Part shown: positions 4,365-20,883 of the stretch, piece by piece
Position numbering within the stretch: the first letter of the stretch is position 1
How the letters are laid out: each line of letters opens with the position of its first letter
Source: a virus
IMG/VR virus record: IMGVR_UViG_3300025889_001150
Location: 1-20,971 of that record
Reading direction: 5' to 3' (one strand)
Length of the DNA stretch: 20,971 nucleotides
Notes under the pieces: model-generated
Told to the model about the DNA's origin: nothing
Databases searched by the model: none
The model's input: only the letters and a program-made list of their open reading frames with translations
Translations under genes and position numbers: made by a program

Positions 4365-5865
4365 AAAATAAATCCTTTTCCTCTTTCTCTTTGTTAATTT
4401 CCCAAAGACCTATCTGTACTTCATAGGTGTATGGGTCAATATAATATGAAGCAAACTTTGTCATACTTTCTTCAAAAAAGAAACCCATTCTTATAGATGT
4501 TGCAACACCTTTTTGAGGTATAATTCCATCTTCGTTTGGTATAACTAACCTTCTGTTTGGCTGTACACGGTCTTTTGAGAAGGTATTTACAAGACTCTCA
4601 ACAATATACCTTTCATCCTTATCACCGTATACCCGAGTACCTTTAGTTTCATTGTAGTTAATGTCATCAATCATTGGATAGAGAATTGTTAAAGCACCCG
4701 TGTATTCTTCCTTAGAAAGTACCATCTTTGGAGTTGCTTTATATTTTTCTCTTTTTTGACCTTTAACTTTATCAGGCAGTGGCTTGCTATGTCGTGAAAT
4801 TAAGACTTTTCTCTCTTTTTCACAAGACCAATCAGCATTTTGAATTTCTAACTCACTTTCAATAGCTGCATCTAACTTTTTACGTCTAGATTCAGAAATA
4901 TAAAGAATAGGAGTGTAGGGTCTCGCCCCACACAATCGAAGAGACTGTATAATCGCTCCGTTCCACAAATCTTCTCCAAAGTCAAGATACTGAGTATAAA
5001 TATCTTTAAACTCTTTGGTACGGTTTGCCATAGCACCTGTAATAATCACTACAGCCGAATCATATTCTTCCTCTGTTGGCTTAGAGTATCCATTCATTAC
5101 TACAGCATTGATACCCGCATCTAGAAATTGGTCTAATAAATTAGCATGTGTTTTGGGGTTGTCTTGGTCCCAATTAACATAATTTGTTACTTTAACGAGA
5201 GCTTTGCGTTTAGTGTTATTTTCTTGTTTAATTCTATTAATTAAAGAAGAACCAACTACTCCTACTGAAAGTTCTTGAGCAGTAAAATCATCTATATTTT
5301 TAATCTGAATATCTGTCATACCTTTGTATGATGGATGCCAAGGACCAACTTTTTTAACTTCAGTCCATTTAACCATAGAGTGAAAACCAACAGCATTTGT
5401 TGCACTTACGCAGGTAAAGACATCTTTCTCACTAAGAGCAGTTACCCATCTTTCTTCAATGCGATGCCTTGTCAGATCCTGCTTCATACAGAGAATCATA
5501 GCATTTACATCATATTCGTCAGAGGTGTAATTAACTAATAGATTTTGACGATGAGCTTCTCCAATAATATCAGAAACTTTTGCATCATAATTTTCATTAA
5601 GATTTACAATAAGTATTTTTCCAGCTAAAGAACCGTACTTATTGTTTTGTTTTCGAAGGTTTTGAGGAAGAATAACATCTTCCTCTTTAAAACCTATTTC
5701 CAATGCTTGCTCTTTTGTTTGGTCTCTTGAAGCCGTTTGATTGATTGTTACAATTATTGAAAAACAATAATCTTTCATTTTAAACATACGAAGAATTTCT
5801 TCATACGTTTTTCCAGCCTTTACCAAACCCATGATAAGTCTTCGCACTTCGCACGCAATTTGCAT
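4333..5865 (-). CDS. SF2-type helicase/ATPase
   Basis: A 510-residue protein with a Walker A motif GLVKAGKT (residues 13-20), DEYD resembling a Walker B/DExD box (116-119), SAT resembling motif III (154-156), and C-terminal segments VIITGAMANRT (274-284) and QSLRLCGA (307-314) placed like motifs V and VI. This is the order of superfamily 2 helicases and restriction translocases. Family assignment is uncertain; it loosely resembles Z1-type ATPases. The ATG overlaps the nuclease stop as TAATG behind GGAGG, so the two are translationally coupled. No nuclease or methylase domain is fused to it. Confidence 0.7.
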   Translation of the reverse strand: MQIACEVRRLIMGLVKAGKTYEEILRMFKMKDYCFSIIVTINQTASRDQTKEQALEIGFKEEDVILPQNLRKQNNKYGSLAGKILIVNLNENYDAKVSDIIGEAHRQNLLVNYTSDEYDVNAMILCMKQDLTRHRIEERWVTALSEKDVFTCVSATNAVGFHSMVKWTEVKKVGPWHPSYKGMTDIQIKNIDDFTAQELSVGVVGSSLINRIKQENNTKRKALVKVTNYVNWDQDNPKTHANLLDQFLDAGINAVVMNGYSKPTEEEYDSAVVIITGAMANRTKEFKDIYTQYLDFGEDLWNGAIIQSLRLCGARPYTPILYISESRRKKLDAAIESELEIQNADWSCEKERKVLISRHSKPLPDKVKGQKREKYKATPKMVLSKEEYTGALTILYPMIDDINYNETKGTRVYGDKDERYIVESLVNTFSKDRVQPNRRLVIPNEDGIIPQKGVATSIRMGFFFEESMTKFASYYIDPYTYEVQIGLWEINKEKEEKDLFYVETEDRSAA

Positions 5866-6248
5866 TAGAGGTTTTCCTCCAACCAATCACCAAGCTCTTC
5901 TATAAAACACCAGTCAAAAGTATCACTTACCTTACTATTGAGATAGTTTAAAATACCTTCTCGTCGTCGATAGTGCTCCCCATCAAGAACAAGAAGTCCA
6001 CGAGGAAAGAATGAAAGATTTTCTAATACGAAAGGCATTTTTTGGTCGGCTGTACCACTGACCTCTTGGCGTTTACATTCTATAGCTAAATCGTCCAGAA
6101 CAAAATCCATCTTAGATCGACTGTTTCCATAACAATCTGTGAATTTGACCTGAGAGCCAAAATCCAGGTTAAAGCTGGAGAGAATATTCGCCACAGCAGA
6201 TTCAAGTTTTTGTCCAGAGTAGTTAGCTTTTGCTCCCTGAGATACCAT
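5865..6248 (-). CDS. PD-(D/E)XK family nuclease
   Basis: The 127-residue protein carries E16 in a first helix, D48 in SKMDFVLDD, then E57-C-K59 with Q61 (ECKRQ), and SGTADQKMPF (64-73): the core layout of PD-(D/E)XK endonucleases, as in many restriction-type enzymes. It would cleave DNA using Mg2+. The start at 6248 follows GGAGG and lies downstream of the promoter; a longer upstream frame crosses that promoter and is rejected. It is the first gene of a three-gene cassette with helicase and methylase. Confidence 0.75.
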   Translation of the reverse strand: MVSQGAKANYSGQKLESAVANILSSFNLDFGSQVKFTDCYGNSRSKMDFVLDDLAIECKRQEVSGTADQKMPFVLENLSFFPRGLLVLDGEHYRRREGILNYLNSKVSDTFDWCFIEELGDWLEENL

Positions 6249-6592: not shown

Positions 6593-6919
6593 CTATTTTT
6601 TACCTACTGCGTCGGCAGCAAAAAATGCCGAAACCAATACTGCAATTGATGCGAAGTATGTTGGTGCGATATCTGCAATTAGATTGGCTGCAGTTTCAAG
6701 ACCAAATAGGGAAGTGCAAAAGATACCAAAAGGATAGAGCAATAAACCAAAGAGCGAAAACCAGGCCATTTTACGAATCGCGTCACGTTGCGCATCTTTA
6801 TCCTCCAATTCCTTACGCTTGAACTCCATGTGCATATCCCATTCTTCTTTTGAGATATGTCCATCACCGTTTGCATCAATGCTTTTTGCTACTTCAGAGT
6901 CTACTGTATGTTCACTCAT
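6593..6919 (-). CDS. EF-hand membrane protein
   Basis: A 108-residue protein with one canonical EF-hand calcium-binding loop at residues 15-26 (D15, N17, D19, E26) in the N-terminal soluble part, then two predicted membrane helices at about 51-73 and 83-104. The topology, two helices with a short soluble domain, is compatible with a holin or a calcium-sensing membrane regulator. Starts behind GGAGGG and overlaps the lipase stop by 8 bases. It is the last gene of the long leftward unit. Function inferred only from architecture. Confidence 0.75.
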   Translation of the reverse strand: MSEHTVDSEVAKSIDANGDGHISKEEWDMHMEFKRKELEDKDAQRDAIRKMAWFSLFGLLLYPFGIFCTSLFGLETAANLIADIAPTYFASIAVLVSAFFAADAVGKK

Positions 6920-7652
6920 TTACCCAGCCCTCCAGGTGTTTTGCATATTCTGTGATGCTATGATCAGAGAAGTTATCAATTCGACCCTCTTTCAGGCCCA
7001 TCCACATACCACGAAACTTATCTTTTACACGCTGCCAACCAGTAAGATTTCTCACCTTTCCATAGGCATTAATGTACATTGAAGTGCCGTGATGTTTGAA
7101 ACCCATAAATGCGGGAGGAACAGTAGTAACGATATCGTTATTATTTCTCCAGCGATAATGACGAATACCTAAACTCTTGCAGTATTTATTCCAGCCAACA
7201 CGAGGCGAACCGTAAGTGTAGAGAGCTTCAATATTGTGCATCGTCGGGTCAAGCTGACAGCGAGAAGCCACAATCGTAGCCATTGCTGCTCCGAGACTAT
7301 GACCACAGAACCAAACATGCTTTTGCTTATCACACTTTTCAAGATCAGCTTTAATCATTGGCCAGAGTTCGTCAACTTCTGATTTAAATCCTTTATGCAC
7401 ACGACCCACCGTTTCAGCAAGTACAGGAATTGCACGTAAATCTGCCTTGATATCATTAAATTCACTCGGCTGCGTGCCCCTGCACGCAATCACAATATCC
7501 GTTTGATCTTCAAATTTATAAGCCTGGGCTCCATCTTTATTGTAAAAAGTCGCATTAAATTGCTGGAATGACGGCAAGCCATCTTCATATGCTGCTTCCG
7601 CCATTCGAGCAAACAAATGACTTTTTTGAGGTAAAGTCATTTCATTGATCAT
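6912..7652 (-). CDS. Class 3 lipase (alpha/beta hydrolase)
   Basis: The 246-residue protein has the lipase class 3 signature: CRGT (57-60) for the oxyanion region, nucleophile elbow GHSLG (117-121, Ser119), YTYGSPRVGW (145-154), catalytic Asp in NNDIVTTVPP (D173) and a His in FKHHGT near 187-188. It would hydrolyse acyl glycerols or phospholipids. No signal peptide is visible. The ATG overlaps the stop of a holin-like gene by 4 bases. The setting among membrane proteins suggests attack on host membrane lipid during lysis, or lipid remodelling; this is inference. The longer frame upstream overlaps the holin-like gene and is rejected. Confidence 0.85.
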   Translation of the reverse strand: MINEMTLPQKSHLFARMAEAAYEDGLPSFQQFNATFYNKDGAQAYKFEDQTDIVIACRGTQPSEFNDIKADLRAIPVLAETVGRVHKGFKSEVDELWPMIKADLEKCDKQKHVWFCGHSLGAAMATIVASRCQLDPTMHNIEALYTYGSPRVGWNKYCKSLGIRHYRWRNNNDIVTTVPPAFMGFKHHGTSMYINAYGKVRNLTGWQRVKDKFRGMWMGLKEGRIDNFSDHSITEYAKHLEGWVNE

Positions 7653-7810
7653 TTTTCTTTTTTCCACAACGTCCATGCTCCGTAACCGAGCAAGCCGTAG
7701 GCAGCCAGTTTTGACAGCGGGCCTAAAATCAAAATTGCCGCTCCAGCAGCAACCATAATCGCACCATCCCAAGAAGTACGTTCTTTCAATCTATCAAGAA
7801 TCCAGTTCAT
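7649..7810 (-). CDS. Small holin-like membrane protein, 53 aa
   Basis: Starts behind GGAGGGG in an ATGA overlap with the preceding gene. N-terminal amphipathic segment (ILDRLKERTSWDG), then a hydrophobic stretch at about residues 17-45 able to form one or two helices, and a basic tail (WKKEK). Similar small proteins with a LKERTSWDG-like start are common in marine myophages and are often suspected holins. Followed directly by the lipase. Confidence 0.65.
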   Translation of the reverse strand: MNWILDRLKERTSWDGAIMVAAGAAILILGPLSKLAAYGLLGYGAWTLWKKEK

Positions 7811-13946: not shown

Positions 13947-14079
13947 GCTTCTTCCTTTTCTTAAACCCTGCTTTCATCAGAGCATAAGCCTTGGGAGAAA
14001 TAGTAGATTTTTTCTTTGATCTACTAATACCCTTCTTGCGTCTGCGGTTTATATTTGCATACAGTCCGCGAGAGGCCAT
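13918..14079 (-). CDS. Very basic conserved phage protein, 53 aa
   Basis: Starts MASRGLYANINRRR and has a long run of Lys/Arg toward the C-terminus (FKKRKKRGSKKKKRS). The MASRGLYANI start is typical of tiny proteins found in many marine phages, from memory. Start coupled by TAATG to the preceding 22-residue gene. Possibly nucleic-acid binding. Confidence 0.7.
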   Translation of the reverse strand: MASRGLYANINRRRKKGISRSKKKSTISPKAYALMKAGFKKRKKRGSKKKKRS

Positions 14080-14147
14080 TAGTATTTACGCTTTTTAGAA
14101 GATTTTTTCTTCTTCTTCTTCTTCTTTTGCATTGAGTGACGAGCCAT
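14079..14147 (-). CDS. Lysine-rich 22-aa peptide
   Basis: An ATG with a perfect AAGGAG site opens a 22-codon frame: MARHSMQ, eight lysines, then SSKKRKY. Six consecutive AAG codons make it prone to slippage. The strong ribosome binding site and TAATG coupling to the next basic gene support it. Confidence 0.6.
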   Translation of the reverse strand: MARHSMQKKKKKKKKSSKKRKY

Positions 14148-14165: not shown

Positions 14166-14413
14166 TTGCGTTAGAATTAACGCAAATGTATCCAATTCTG
14201 TTGCCAAGCTGGATACCCACTCCGCAATGCGCTACTGTTTAGGCAGCCATTGCAAGATCATAAACTTCATCGTTTGCGTTTATGTTTAAATTGACTCTAT
14301 TAAGTCCTATTCACACAGCGTCGAATCCAGTACGCCCCCGTCGATTTTTATTGGTGGAGGCGGGCGGAGTTGAACCGCCGTCCGTCATGTCTTAATAACT
14401 CAAATCATTGAGT
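14166..14413 (-). ncRNA. ssrA: Circularly permuted (two-piece) tmRNA
   Basis: The normal 3' part comes first on the minus strand: a hairpin (14398-14413), TATTAAG (14391-14397), the T-arm GGCGG-TTCAACT-CCGCC, acceptor strand CGCCTCC and ACCA (14352-14355). Twelve bases later the normal 5' end follows: GGGGGCG (14333-14339), then TACTGGATTCGACG. The two acceptor strands pair over 7 bp with the alanine identity pair G3-U70 and A73. CTTAATA (14298-14304) pairs with TATTAAG as helix P2. The tag frame (14277-14239) encodes ANDEVYDLAMAA then TAA. Two further helices close the coding piece (14188-14216 and 14166-14185). tmRNA rescues stalled ribosomes and tags products for proteolysis. Exact ends are estimated. 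Confidence 0.9.
14239..14277 (-). other. tmRNA tag reading frame (ANDEVYDLAMAA)
   Basis: Twelve codons beginning with the resume codon GCA and ending in TAA. The start ANDE matches the commonest proteobacterial tag start, and the end AMAA is a degron type recognised by ClpXP, close to the ALAA/AVAA ends seen in alphaproteobacteria. Confidence 0.85.
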
Positions 14414-14581
14414 CTATGCGGGCTGATCCTCTTTACTACTGTGTAGATAAGTAATCTGCCCACAAGTATATTGTGGCGTGTCTTCGACACATTTACCACA
14501 TTTAGAGCCGACTAAGTGATAGTAATAATCGTTTTCTTGCAACATCTTGTCAGTTATTGCATTACAGATACATACATACAC
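14414..14581 (-). CDS. Bfd-like [2Fe-2S] protein, 55 aa
   Basis: A GTG eight bases after AAGGAG opens a frame beginning MYVCICNAIT and containing VGSKCGKCVED: the C-x-C (C4, C6) and C-x-x-C (C28, C31) ligand pattern of bacterioferritin-associated ferredoxin. In bacteria Bfd reduces bacterioferritin to release iron. This version has a shorter middle (21 residues between the cysteine pairs, against 31 in E. coli Bfd) and an extra Cys40. The stop lies directly before the first hairpin of the tmRNA. Cluster binding and any link to host iron stores are inferred. Confidence 0.75.
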   Translation of the reverse strand: MYVCICNAITDKMLQENDYYYHLVGSKCGKCVEDTPQYTCGQITYLHSSKEDQPA

Positions 14582-15535: not shown

Positions 15536-15564
15536 ATTATACAAGCTTAAGGATTATAAGTCAA
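15536..15564 (-). promoter_or_regulatory. Leftward sigma70 promoter of the tmRNA and structural unit
   Basis: TTGACT (15559-15564), 17 bases, TATAAT (15536-15541) on the minus strand, with flank AAATAATTC. No promoter of similar quality was seen from here down to 6593, so it may drive the whole unit. Confidence 0.88.
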
Positions 15565-15763: not shown

Positions 15764-16007
15764 CTGTTCCAAATCCTGCGGAAGCTAGTGCGTCACCGTC
15801 CCAATCTGTTAGCCATTCGTCTTCATCATACATAGCTTTTTCTACGGCTAACTCTTCTTCTATAGCTCTTTGAACAAGTTCAAGCGCATAGTCAAGAGTA
15901 ACATCAAAACGAGCTACTACTTCTTCAGCCATTTCGTATGGCTCAGTATCCCACATTGCTAGTACAATATGAGAAACTTCTTGATAGAGTTCTCCAATAC
16001 TACCCAT
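15747..16007 (-). CDS. Acidic hypothetical protein, 86 aa
   Basis: A helical acidic protein (AEEVVARFDVTLDYALELVQ) with an Asp/Glu-rich tail. The helix pattern suggests a small UBA-like or antirepressor-type fold, but I cannot name it. The start has a weak GGTAGA upstream and lies one base from the preceding gene. Confidence 0.6.
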   Translation of the reverse strand: MGSIGELYQEVSHIVLAMWDTEPYEMAEEVVARFDVTLDYALELVQRAIEEELAVEKAMYDEDEWLTDWDGDALASAGFGTDEDYF

Positions 16008-18982: not shown

Positions 18983-19191
18983 GCTACTCTCCATTCTATA
19001 ATGGTAGACTTATGTATGTCTTCCCATTCCTTGGCTATCGGATTATAGCCTACAATTTTATCTGACTTTGGGTTTTGAGGTACTTTAAAACAAGTATTCA
19101 AAGTAAATGTTTTTGTTATCTCTTTTCCGCTGTTTAAACTTTTAAATGTAATATCAACTTCACCTTTTAGTAAAGCATCTATTAAGTTCAT
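18979..19191 (-). CDS. Small beta-barrel-like protein, 70 aa
   Basis: The pattern LLKGEVDITFKSLNSGKEI, TKTFTLN and a C-terminal YNPIAKEWEDIHKSTIIEW resembles phage WYL_2/DUF2693 proteins, small SH3-like proteins. The match is by pattern only; function unknown. Overlaps both neighbours by 4 bases. Confidence 0.6.
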   Translation of the reverse strand: MNLIDALLKGEVDITFKSLNSGKEITKTFTLNTCFKVPQNPKSDKIVGYNPIAKEWEDIHKSTIIEWRVA

Positions 19192-19520
19192 AAATCCTCT
19201 TGTTTTACAAAGATGCCATCAATCATCTTTCCTTTTCTGTCTTTAATATCCATCCATGCAACTTCAAGGCAGTCGGTCATATGCAGATTATTTCTTTCCA
19301 TAATATTAATCATTACTACAAGCATATCTCCAAGATCATCACGAATATCTTTTCCTTTGCAAACACTATCTGAAAGCTCTCCAAGTTCCTGCATTAGTTT
19401 GAGAACTTGGTCTTTGTCAGTGCTGCCTTCAATTAGATTTCGGTCACGATGCCAAGTCTTAATTCTTGACACCATTACATCAGTGATACCTCTTGCCTCT
19501 CCGTTCCACTTATCATTCAT
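19188..19520 (-). CDS. MazG-like nucleotide pyrophosphohydrolase
   Basis: The 110-residue protein carries LMQELGELSDSV (E45, E48) and DDLGDMLVVMINI (D61, D62, D65), the ExxE and (E/D)xxD metal-binding pattern of all-alpha NTP pyrophosphatases. The family hydrolyses (d)NTPs; phage versions may rebalance nucleotide pools. The usual Glu of the second motif appears as Asp. Start overlaps a small membrane gene by 4 bases. Confidence 0.8.
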   Translation of the reverse strand: MNDKWNGEARGITDVMVSRIKTWHRDRNLIEGSTDKDQVLKLMQELGELSDSVCKGKDIRDDLGDMLVVMINIMERNNLHMTDCLEVAWMDIKDRKGKMIDGIFVKQEDL

Positions 19521-19639
19521 ACTAGAAAATTTCCCATAGGTAAATTATACTTTACTGCATACATATATCCAACCCAGTTCATATAAGTAATTAAACCAAG
19601 AACTGATAATGCCACTGCACTATTTCTTATACGTTTCAT
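19517..19639 (-). CDS. Small membrane protein, 40 aa
   Basis: An ATG behind GGGGAG, overlapping the ThyX stop by 4 bases and the MazG-like start by 4 bases. Basic N-terminus (MKRIRNS) and one hydrophobic helix (AVALSVLGLITYMNWVGYMY). Function unknown. Confidence 0.6.
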   Translation of the reverse strand: MKRIRNSAVALSVLGLITYMNWVGYMYAVKYNLPMGNFLV

Positions 19640-20262
19640 TCGTCTCCCCAGACGTCAGCCCCGTTTTCCACGAGTATTCTTTTGCACTCAAGTGCAATTA
19701 GTTGATGTTCTTTCTGAGTACCGTTTCCGCCACGTAATTCTACGAAGTGCATCCATGATCTCAGCGTTCCTGTCATGTACAGTCGAGATTGTATAAGTCC
19801 TTCCGGTAATACTGCCCTCGCCTGTTCTTTTGCAATTCCGTTTTTTATTGCCCACTGATAAGCAGCTAATGAAACATCCGTTACTGAATCTTGAAAATTT
19901 TTCCATCCAGTAGCAAGATTTTTATCGTCTGTTTCAATACTGTTTTGTCTATTTTTCGTATCTTGTAGTCTGGCTTCACGAGTAACAAACTGTAAATCTT
20001 CTGTGGGGTCTGCATATCTCTGACTAAACTCTTGAAAAGAAAAAGAGCGGTGTCGAAGAATTTGTCGAGCAATATCTCTTGTAGTAGTAATCTCCATACA
20101 AGCAGAAGCCATTTCAAAAGGACTAAAATGCCCTTCTTTTTTTAGATACTTAAGTAGCTTTGGTGCTGTTTTGGAATTATTTTGGTTGGCGGGATTACTT
20201 ACACGAGCACAATAAGCGATAACGTCCATCGCATTCGGCGTTACCCAAACTAAATTTATCAT
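19636..20262 (-). CDS. thyX: Flavin-dependent thymidylate synthase
   Basis: The 208-residue protein has the ThyX signature RHRSFSFQEFSQRY at residues 70-83 and a conserved C-terminal LRSWMHFVELR segment. ThyX makes dTMP from dUMP using methylene-tetrahydrofolate, FAD and NADPH. Length is normal. The ATG at 20262 follows GGAG and lies downstream of a strong promoter. First gene of the nucleotide-metabolism and lysis unit. Confidence 0.95.
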   Translation of the reverse strand: MINLVWVTPNAMDVIAYCARVSNPANQNNSKTAPKLLKYLKKEGHFSPFEMASACMEITTTRDIARQILRHRSFSFQEFSQRYADPTEDLQFVTREARLQDTKNRQNSIETDDKNLATGWKNFQDSVTDVSLAAYQWAIKNGIAKEQARAVLPEGLIQSRLYMTGTLRSWMHFVELRGGNGTQKEHQLIALECKRILVENGADVWGDE

Positions 20263-20287
20263 TGAATTCTCCACTATCTAAGAGCAT

Positions 20288-20493: not shown

Positions 20494-20883
20494 ATGAATG
20501 CTATAAACTTAGATAAATTTTTTGTCGGCTTCGACAATTTTATGAACAACCCGTTGTATACTCAACAGGCTCCAGAATACCCACGTTACAACATTGAAAA
20601 AGTAAAGGACGGCTACGAAGTGCAAGTAGCTGTGCCGGGATGGAAAAAAGAACAGATTTCAGTGAACGTTCACAAAAACGTCCTCTCCATCAAAGGGGAT
20701 AAAAAAGATTGTAACGAAGGTAGAAACTGGGTCCACAAAGGTATCAGTGGTAAGAGTTTCGAAAAGCACTTAAAGCTGGACAACAGCTTAGAGGTGACCG
20801 AAGCTTCCATGGAAGATGGAATGTTGATTATCAGTTTAACGTATTCGCCCTCTAGTAAGCCCACATCAATACCTATTGGGTAA
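20494..20883 (+). CDS. hsp20: Hsp20 small heat shock protein
   Basis: The 129-residue protein has a full alpha-crystallin domain (about 28-118; YNIEKVKDGYEVQVAVPGWK, then VNVHKNVLSIKG, and MLIISLTY) and a C-terminal IPI motif (IxI type) in TSIPIG. It binds unfolding proteins without ATP. Phage Hsp20 is known in marine myophages, where a role in virion assembly is suspected. AAAGGAG precedes the ATG. It is divergent to thyX. Confidence 0.92.
   Translation: MNAINLDKFFVGFDNFMNNPLYTQQAPEYPRYNIEKVKDGYEVQVAVPGWKKEQISVNVHKNVLSIKGDKKDCNEGRNWVHKGISGKSFEKHLKLDNSLEVTEASMEDGMLIISLTYSPSSKPTSIPIG

Follow-up and report, generated by a model that had tools for sequence, protein, structure and literature searches.

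Permuted (two-piece) tmRNAs are already known from bacteriophages. Of the 133 unique tmRNA structures from phages in the survey of Buchholz et al. (2022, PMC9004378), 53 are two-piece forms, 50 of these being marine or aquatic, and roles in rescue or tagging are proposed for them. The tmRNA database of 2025 has 79 unique sequences from bacteriophages (PMC11915505). Other phage-borne ssrA genes comparable to the one described here are the mycobacteriophage tmRNAs of the Bxz1 group and the tRNA-like RNA of phage DS6A (PMC4131195). Unlike the tmRNA studied here, the DS6A RNA is tag-less and not permuted. The tmRNAs of the Bxz1 group are one-piece and not permuted.

Permuted tmRNAs are also common in IMG/VR: with simple patterns we find at least 120 viral contigs with an alpha-type permuted tmRNA and about 20 with a canonical T-loop, where the first scan demanded a canonical T-loop and was hence biased, while the second used the alpha T-loop pattern. 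A preliminary description of the present locus had implied that a two-piece tmRNA in a phage is novel, which cannot be upheld given the published survey and these numbers. What this copy adds is a tag that is not found in the scanned bacteria and a clear insertion context.

A permuted tmRNA gene on the minus strand

The window, i.e. the whole stretch of DNA that was analysed, is a complete IMG/VR record of 20,971 bases; it is linear and probably a fragment of a genome. ARAGORN finds a single gene in it, a permuted tmRNA at 14444-14148 on the minus strand, with the tag ANDEVYDLAMAA. The Rfam family tmRNA_permuted (RF04321) matches 14414-14239 on the same strand over the full model, scoring 102.3 bits where the cut-off is 47 (E 2.8e-19). 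Within its Rfam clan, among the older subtype models, the top score for the window is that of beta_tmRNA (RF01850), which aligns 14454-14161 at 82.6 bits, 1.4 bits short of the family cut-off of 84. Further, the predicted fold of the precursor is more stable than that of 200 out of 200 shuffled sequences (z -4.26).

The central claim of the preliminary description, a permuted tmRNA with its own tag in a phage, is thus borne out by ARAGORN and by the Rfam permuted model. Its placement of the gene at 14166-14413 is accurate, but it left out the strand, which is the minus one. ARAGORN extends the gene by about 30 nt at the 5' side; these nucleotides belong to the 3' end of a small conserved ORF (14581-14414), which makes 14413 the better limit.

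On the minus strand the order is acceptor piece, intervening sequence, coding piece. The features are:

14166..14414, minus: permuted (two-piece) tmRNA gene, precursor core (ARAGORN, RF04321, RF01850 and fold stability)
14352..14414, minus: acceptor piece, ending in an encoded CCA (pair table and sequence)
14414-14410 and 14397-14391, minus: 3' strands of P2 in the acceptor piece (pair table)
14390-14384, minus: stem adjoining P2 in the acceptor piece (pair table)
14379-14363, minus: T-arm (pair table)
14362-14356, minus: 3' strand of the acceptor stem, followed by A73 (pair table)
14354-14352, minus: encoded CCA (read from the sequence)
14340..14351, minus: intervening sequence of 12 nt, expected to be removed (variable in L014 and L015, flanks conserved)
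14166..14339, minus: coding piece, with the acceptor 5' strand, a D-like loop, the P2 5' strands, the tag frame and two 3' hairpins
14339-14333, minus: acceptor 5' strand GGGGGCG, start of the coding piece
14239..14277, minus: tag reading frame ANDEVYDLAMAA and stop codon TAA (ARAGORN; identical tag in L015 and L014)
14188..14216, minus: 3' hairpin with the loop CTTGGCAACAGAA (loop motif also in L370 and L375-L378)
14166..14185, minus: last hairpin, TTGCGTTA/TAACGCAA, without a U-tract (sequence and fold)

The acceptor stem (7 bp), the T-stem (5 bp) and the P2 helices are all paired in the window. The acceptor helix with G3-U70, the A73, the T-arm and P2, all noted in the preliminary description, stand in the pair table, and the 12-base gap that it saw between CCA and the 5' end is exact. 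In the alignment G3.U70 occupies columns 61/138, and the pairs of the alanyl tRNA-like domain, which consists of the acceptor stem (G3.U70 included), A73, CCA and the T-arm, are complete in all three phage sequences described below. After the tmRNA no intrinsic terminator is predicted; the last hairpin is not called as one.

Conservation in related phages

Two sister viral contigs, L015 and L014, carry the gene at the same locus as the window and are related to it along their entire length or the greater part of it, with 71-93% DNA identity in blocks. The mature parts of the tmRNA align among the three but the spacers do not: they are 12 nt in the window, 68 nt in L015 and 58 nt in L014, with little sequence conservation. 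Between the window and L014, 16 of 63 positions differ in the acceptor piece and 12 of the 62 that precede the tag in the coding piece, while the tag has one mismatch in 36 nt, which is synonymous.

In a structure of 31 named pairs, 94.6% of the cells are paired in the three sequences, compared with 41-48% when the partners are slid. L014 shows five compensatory double changes (two in the T-stem and one each in P2, the adjoining stem and the acceptor), against 0-1 with slid partners; as two of the three sequences are close, this represents one lineage split and is supportive, not statistical proof. P2 is paired in the window and L015 and has one double change in its outer part; in its inner part L014 loses three of seven pairs.

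Scanning viral contigs for DNA that encodes the tag shows ANDEVYDLAMAA to be shared by the window, L015 and L014. Across these three the 12 tag codons hold one synonymous change, and the stop codon swaps between TAA and TAG. In the bacterial genomes scanned (84,980 species, tags of the form ANDE?Y??A?AA) the phage tag is not found; the pattern has eight matches, and those that were read are ANDENYSMALAA, ANDEAYAPAMAA and ANDEVYAPAMAA. The phage tag can be divided into AANDEVY, DL and AMAA, so that it keeps the AANDE.Y front and the A.AA end of the E. coli degron AANDENYALAA, which is listed with SspB and ClpX (PMC8138137).

Among other viral permuted tmRNAs, nine (L236, L240, L257, L267; L223, L226, L243, L244, L248) have predicted tags of 22-31 residues, where 10-14 is usual; one such tag, ANDNALSNVTFVDFSAPVTAVNEDFALAA, occurs in four contigs. 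Two bacterial permuted tmRNAs (L373 and L374, from the order of G329) have the frame ANDSVYDVALAA and are found by RF04321 but missed by ARAGORN.

A BLASTN search with the tmRNA finds no match among named phages, and none of the seven named phages that share single genes with the window has a permuted tmRNA. Among the 80 listed relatives of the neighbouring gene, about 65 of which hold at least 1 kb upstream and which do not include L015, ARAGORN finds no tmRNA, indicating rarity and not absence.

A probable insertion in a phage operon

The tmRNA lies between small genes, with a promoter candidate upstream:

15536..15564, minus: sigma70-like promoter TTGACT-17-TATAAT, 11 of 12 consensus positions, nearest strong candidate upstream
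14414..14581, minus: Bfd-like [2Fe-2S] ORF of 55 aa, directly upstream (PF04324, E 3e-4, below the curated cut-off)
14079..14147, minus: Lys-rich micro-ORF, next gene downstream, with the RBS AAGGAG about 10 nt past the last tmRNA hairpin

The stop codon of the Bfd-like ORF touches the first base of P2. Homologues of this ORF are present in L015, L014 and a further syntenic relative, L032; among named phages it has no match. Farther downstream of the micro-ORF follow phrog_7595 and a virion structural protein of 599 aa.

L032 has no tmRNA: an empty gap of 23 nt separates its Bfd-like ORF from its Lys-rich ORF. This arrangement indicates that a cassette of some 250 bp with the tmRNA was either gained or lost within the operon. 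Together with the conservation and the compensatory changes in the sister contigs, it suggests that the tmRNA is mobile, was inserted into a phage operon and is kept there by selection.

The promoter at 15564-15536 is conserved in L015 and L014, and TTGACA-17-TATAAT stands in the corresponding position of L032. The tmRNA is presumably transcribed from this promoter, and the precursor would be processed at its outer ends.

Downstream of the promoter lies a long, mostly non-coding conserved region (15530-14600, minus), with counterparts in L015 (about 5215-6170), L014 (about 1210-410) and L032 (2640-3190). It contains strong hairpins such as CCCACTAATAA/TTATTAGTGGG and folds better than shuffled sequences (z -3.85; -1.76 for the L032 counterpart). 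No Rfam family matches it even at E 5. It is a candidate for a large phage non-coding RNA.

Some other genes of these phages should be mentioned. An IscU/NifU_N iron-sulfur scaffold gene is found in L015 (3746-4126; PF01592, E 2e-53), L014 (2067-1684) and L032 (1825-2202) but is missing from the window, at 16007/16008; taken together, it and the Bfd-like gene hint that Fe-S clusters are of interest to the phages. A Lys/Arg-rich micro-ORF (14079-13918, minus) lies in DNA shared with pelagiphage HTVC010P, where it is unannotated, and with the OM43 phage MEP301. The window also encodes an HSP20 chaperone (20494-20883, plus), a class 3 lipase (6912-7772, minus), a MazG-like protein (19188-19520, minus) and ThyX (19636-20274, minus). 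ThyX is closest to phages of Limnohabitans and Curvibacter, while other genes of the window look like those of phages infecting roseobacters, cyanobacteria, SAR11 and OM43.

Origin of the gene

The preliminary description implied an alphaproteobacterial source and proposed a comparison with alphaproteobacterial tags. The traits of the alpha type (RF01849), a T-loop GGCGGTA or GGCAGTA and an ANDN tag, are not those of the window. The T-loop is the canonical TTCAACT in the window and L015, and TGCAAGT in L014. In the bacterial sample, which is drawn from Pseudomonadota and by tag is nearly all alpha-type, 59 of the 70 extracted permuted tmRNAs have GGCGGTA or GGCAGTA; among the viral matches listed the figure is 119 of 119, by design of the alpha pattern. 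Further, almost every alphaproteobacterial tag in the sample is of the ANDN or ANNN kind, whereas the phage tag begins with ANDE.

The nearest bacterial tmRNA is L370, with 58.4% identity to the phage sequence, against at most 50.5% for the sampled alphaproteobacteria. Related chromosomal permuted tmRNAs occur in G898 and its family members (1.6-4.9 Mb) with the tags ANDENFALAA, ANDESYALAA and ANDDKFALAA; the one in G898 adjoins ispH and an FKBP-type isomerase gene. Judged by their match to beta_tmRNA, the genomes of this family (about 2 Mb for the closest) appear to be Burkholderiaceae-like.

In a tree of 80 sequences the phage clade groups with the Burkholderiaceae-like group of L370 (UFBoot 100). 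With different taxon sampling a partial viral sequence, L002, comes between the phage clade and the Burkholderiaceae group, which is then the next-nearest; trees on about 260 columns are unstable, and the sister group shifts with the sampling. A first AU comparison on 80 sequences did not separate the placements. In the AU test nesting within the mainstream alphaproteobacteria is rejected (p 0.005), while a basal branch next to them, outside the Burkholderiaceae group, is not (p 0.41).

This basal placement could be taken as a sign that the gene came from Alphaproteobacteria after all, as could the fact that L015 also passes the alpha_tmRNA cut-off (55.9 against 50) and that phages of roseobacters and of other hosts have relatives of the neighbouring phage gene. 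Given the T-loop, the tag, the identities, the higher beta score in the window and the rejected nesting, such an origin seems unlikely. The T-loop, the ANDE tag, the Rfam subtype scores and the trees favour a gamma/betaproteobacterial type that would be closest to Burkholderiaceae-like genomes.

Proposed function

Our best joint explanation, to which we give a probability of roughly 0.8, is that the phage acquired a two-piece tmRNA of the gamma/betaproteobacterial type, which is cut, paired and used to rescue ribosomes with host factors. A complete gene, most probably of the Burkholderiaceae-like type, would have been inserted cleanly between the Bfd-like gene and the micro-ORF, in an operon leading into virion genes. 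Host tRNA-processing enzymes would cut the operon transcript at CCA and G1, removing the 12-nt spacer, and endonucleases would cut the outer ends, with the two pieces held together by the acceptor and P2 helices. G3.U70 may then recruit the host AlaRS and the RNA may bind the host SmpB, so that ribosomes that have stalled on broken mRNAs of phage or host could be rescued, AANDEVYDLAMAA being added and the tagged products degraded by the host ClpXP. No SmpB gene is present in the 21-kb fragment, and the function would thus depend on the SmpB of the host. The role would most likely be ordinary trans-translation during infection, with the tag as a functional degradation signal.

The tag bears on an alternative in which the RNA is a decoy or modulator that competes with the host tmRNA for SmpB and AlaRS, and blocks or redirects trans-translation without itself rescuing. 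A precedent exists, as a tag-less tRNA-like RNA of the DS6A type is reported to inhibit the endogenous tmRNA (PMC4131195; cited in PMC11915505). Here, however, the whole tag frame, the resume region and the stop codon are under strong constraint. In the degron the front is read by SspB and the end by ClpX; the phage tag keeps both, and a decoy would need neither, which makes this alternative improbable. Just as doubtful is that the phage reprograms trans-translation, its tmRNA being expressed from the operon, outcompeting that of the host and adding a tag that is handled differently. If so, the longer spacing of the tag (two more residues) would shift proteolysis or the recycling of amino acids to the advantage of the phage, and a tag that works unlike that of the host would give the phage a route to steer host protein turnover.

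The gene could also be without function, a copy of an attachment site left from prophage integration into a host tmRNA gene. Such genes are common integration sites, and integration has been suggested as the source of other phage copies (PMC9004378). We reject this as very improbable: both pieces are complete, the gene lies inside an operon, it is kept with compensatory changes in three diverged phages, and among 20 proteins of the record, itself a fragment, a scan against PHROGs shows no integrase. That the assembly is metagenomic raises the question of an artefact or of bacterial contamination. This is effectively refuted and hardly credible, since the gene and its phage neighbours recur at 71-93% identity in three contigs from different data sets, and the tag occurs in no bacterial genome searched.

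Comparison with known two-piece tmRNAs

The Burkholderiaceae-like tmRNAs (L370 and L375-L380; RF01850/RF04321) share the permuted order, the canonical T-loop and the tag front ANDE..[FY] with the phage copy, and most of them also the 3' hairpin CTTGGCAACAGAA. Their tags ANDESYALAA and ANDENFALAA have ends like those of ANDEVYDLAMAA but are two residues shorter between them, and their spacers are 30-51 nt, compared with 12 nt in the phage. They are followed by T-runs, whereas the phage copy lies inside a phage operon and has no called terminator.

Methylophilales phage Melnitz also has a two-piece tmRNA (MZ577097, 45984-46436; RF04321, 113.4 bits). It has the alpha-type T-loop GGCAGTA and a spacer of 142 nt, in contrast to TTCAACT and 12 nt in the window. 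Melnitz is a 141-kb myophage, and its tmRNA adjoins a glutamine riboswitch (PMC9004378). A number of viral contigs (L002-L013 and L327-L335) have the same canonical T-loop class as the window, with tags such as ANDDVYEMALAA and ANDDVYALAA, but none has ANDEVYDLAMAA.

To these systems the present locus adds a conserved and structurally supported viral two-piece tmRNA of a probably non-alphaproteobacterial type. With three related phages that carry the gene and a syntenic one that does not, the use of trans-translation by phages becomes testable, and the comparison shows a tmRNA moving as a cassette between phage genes.
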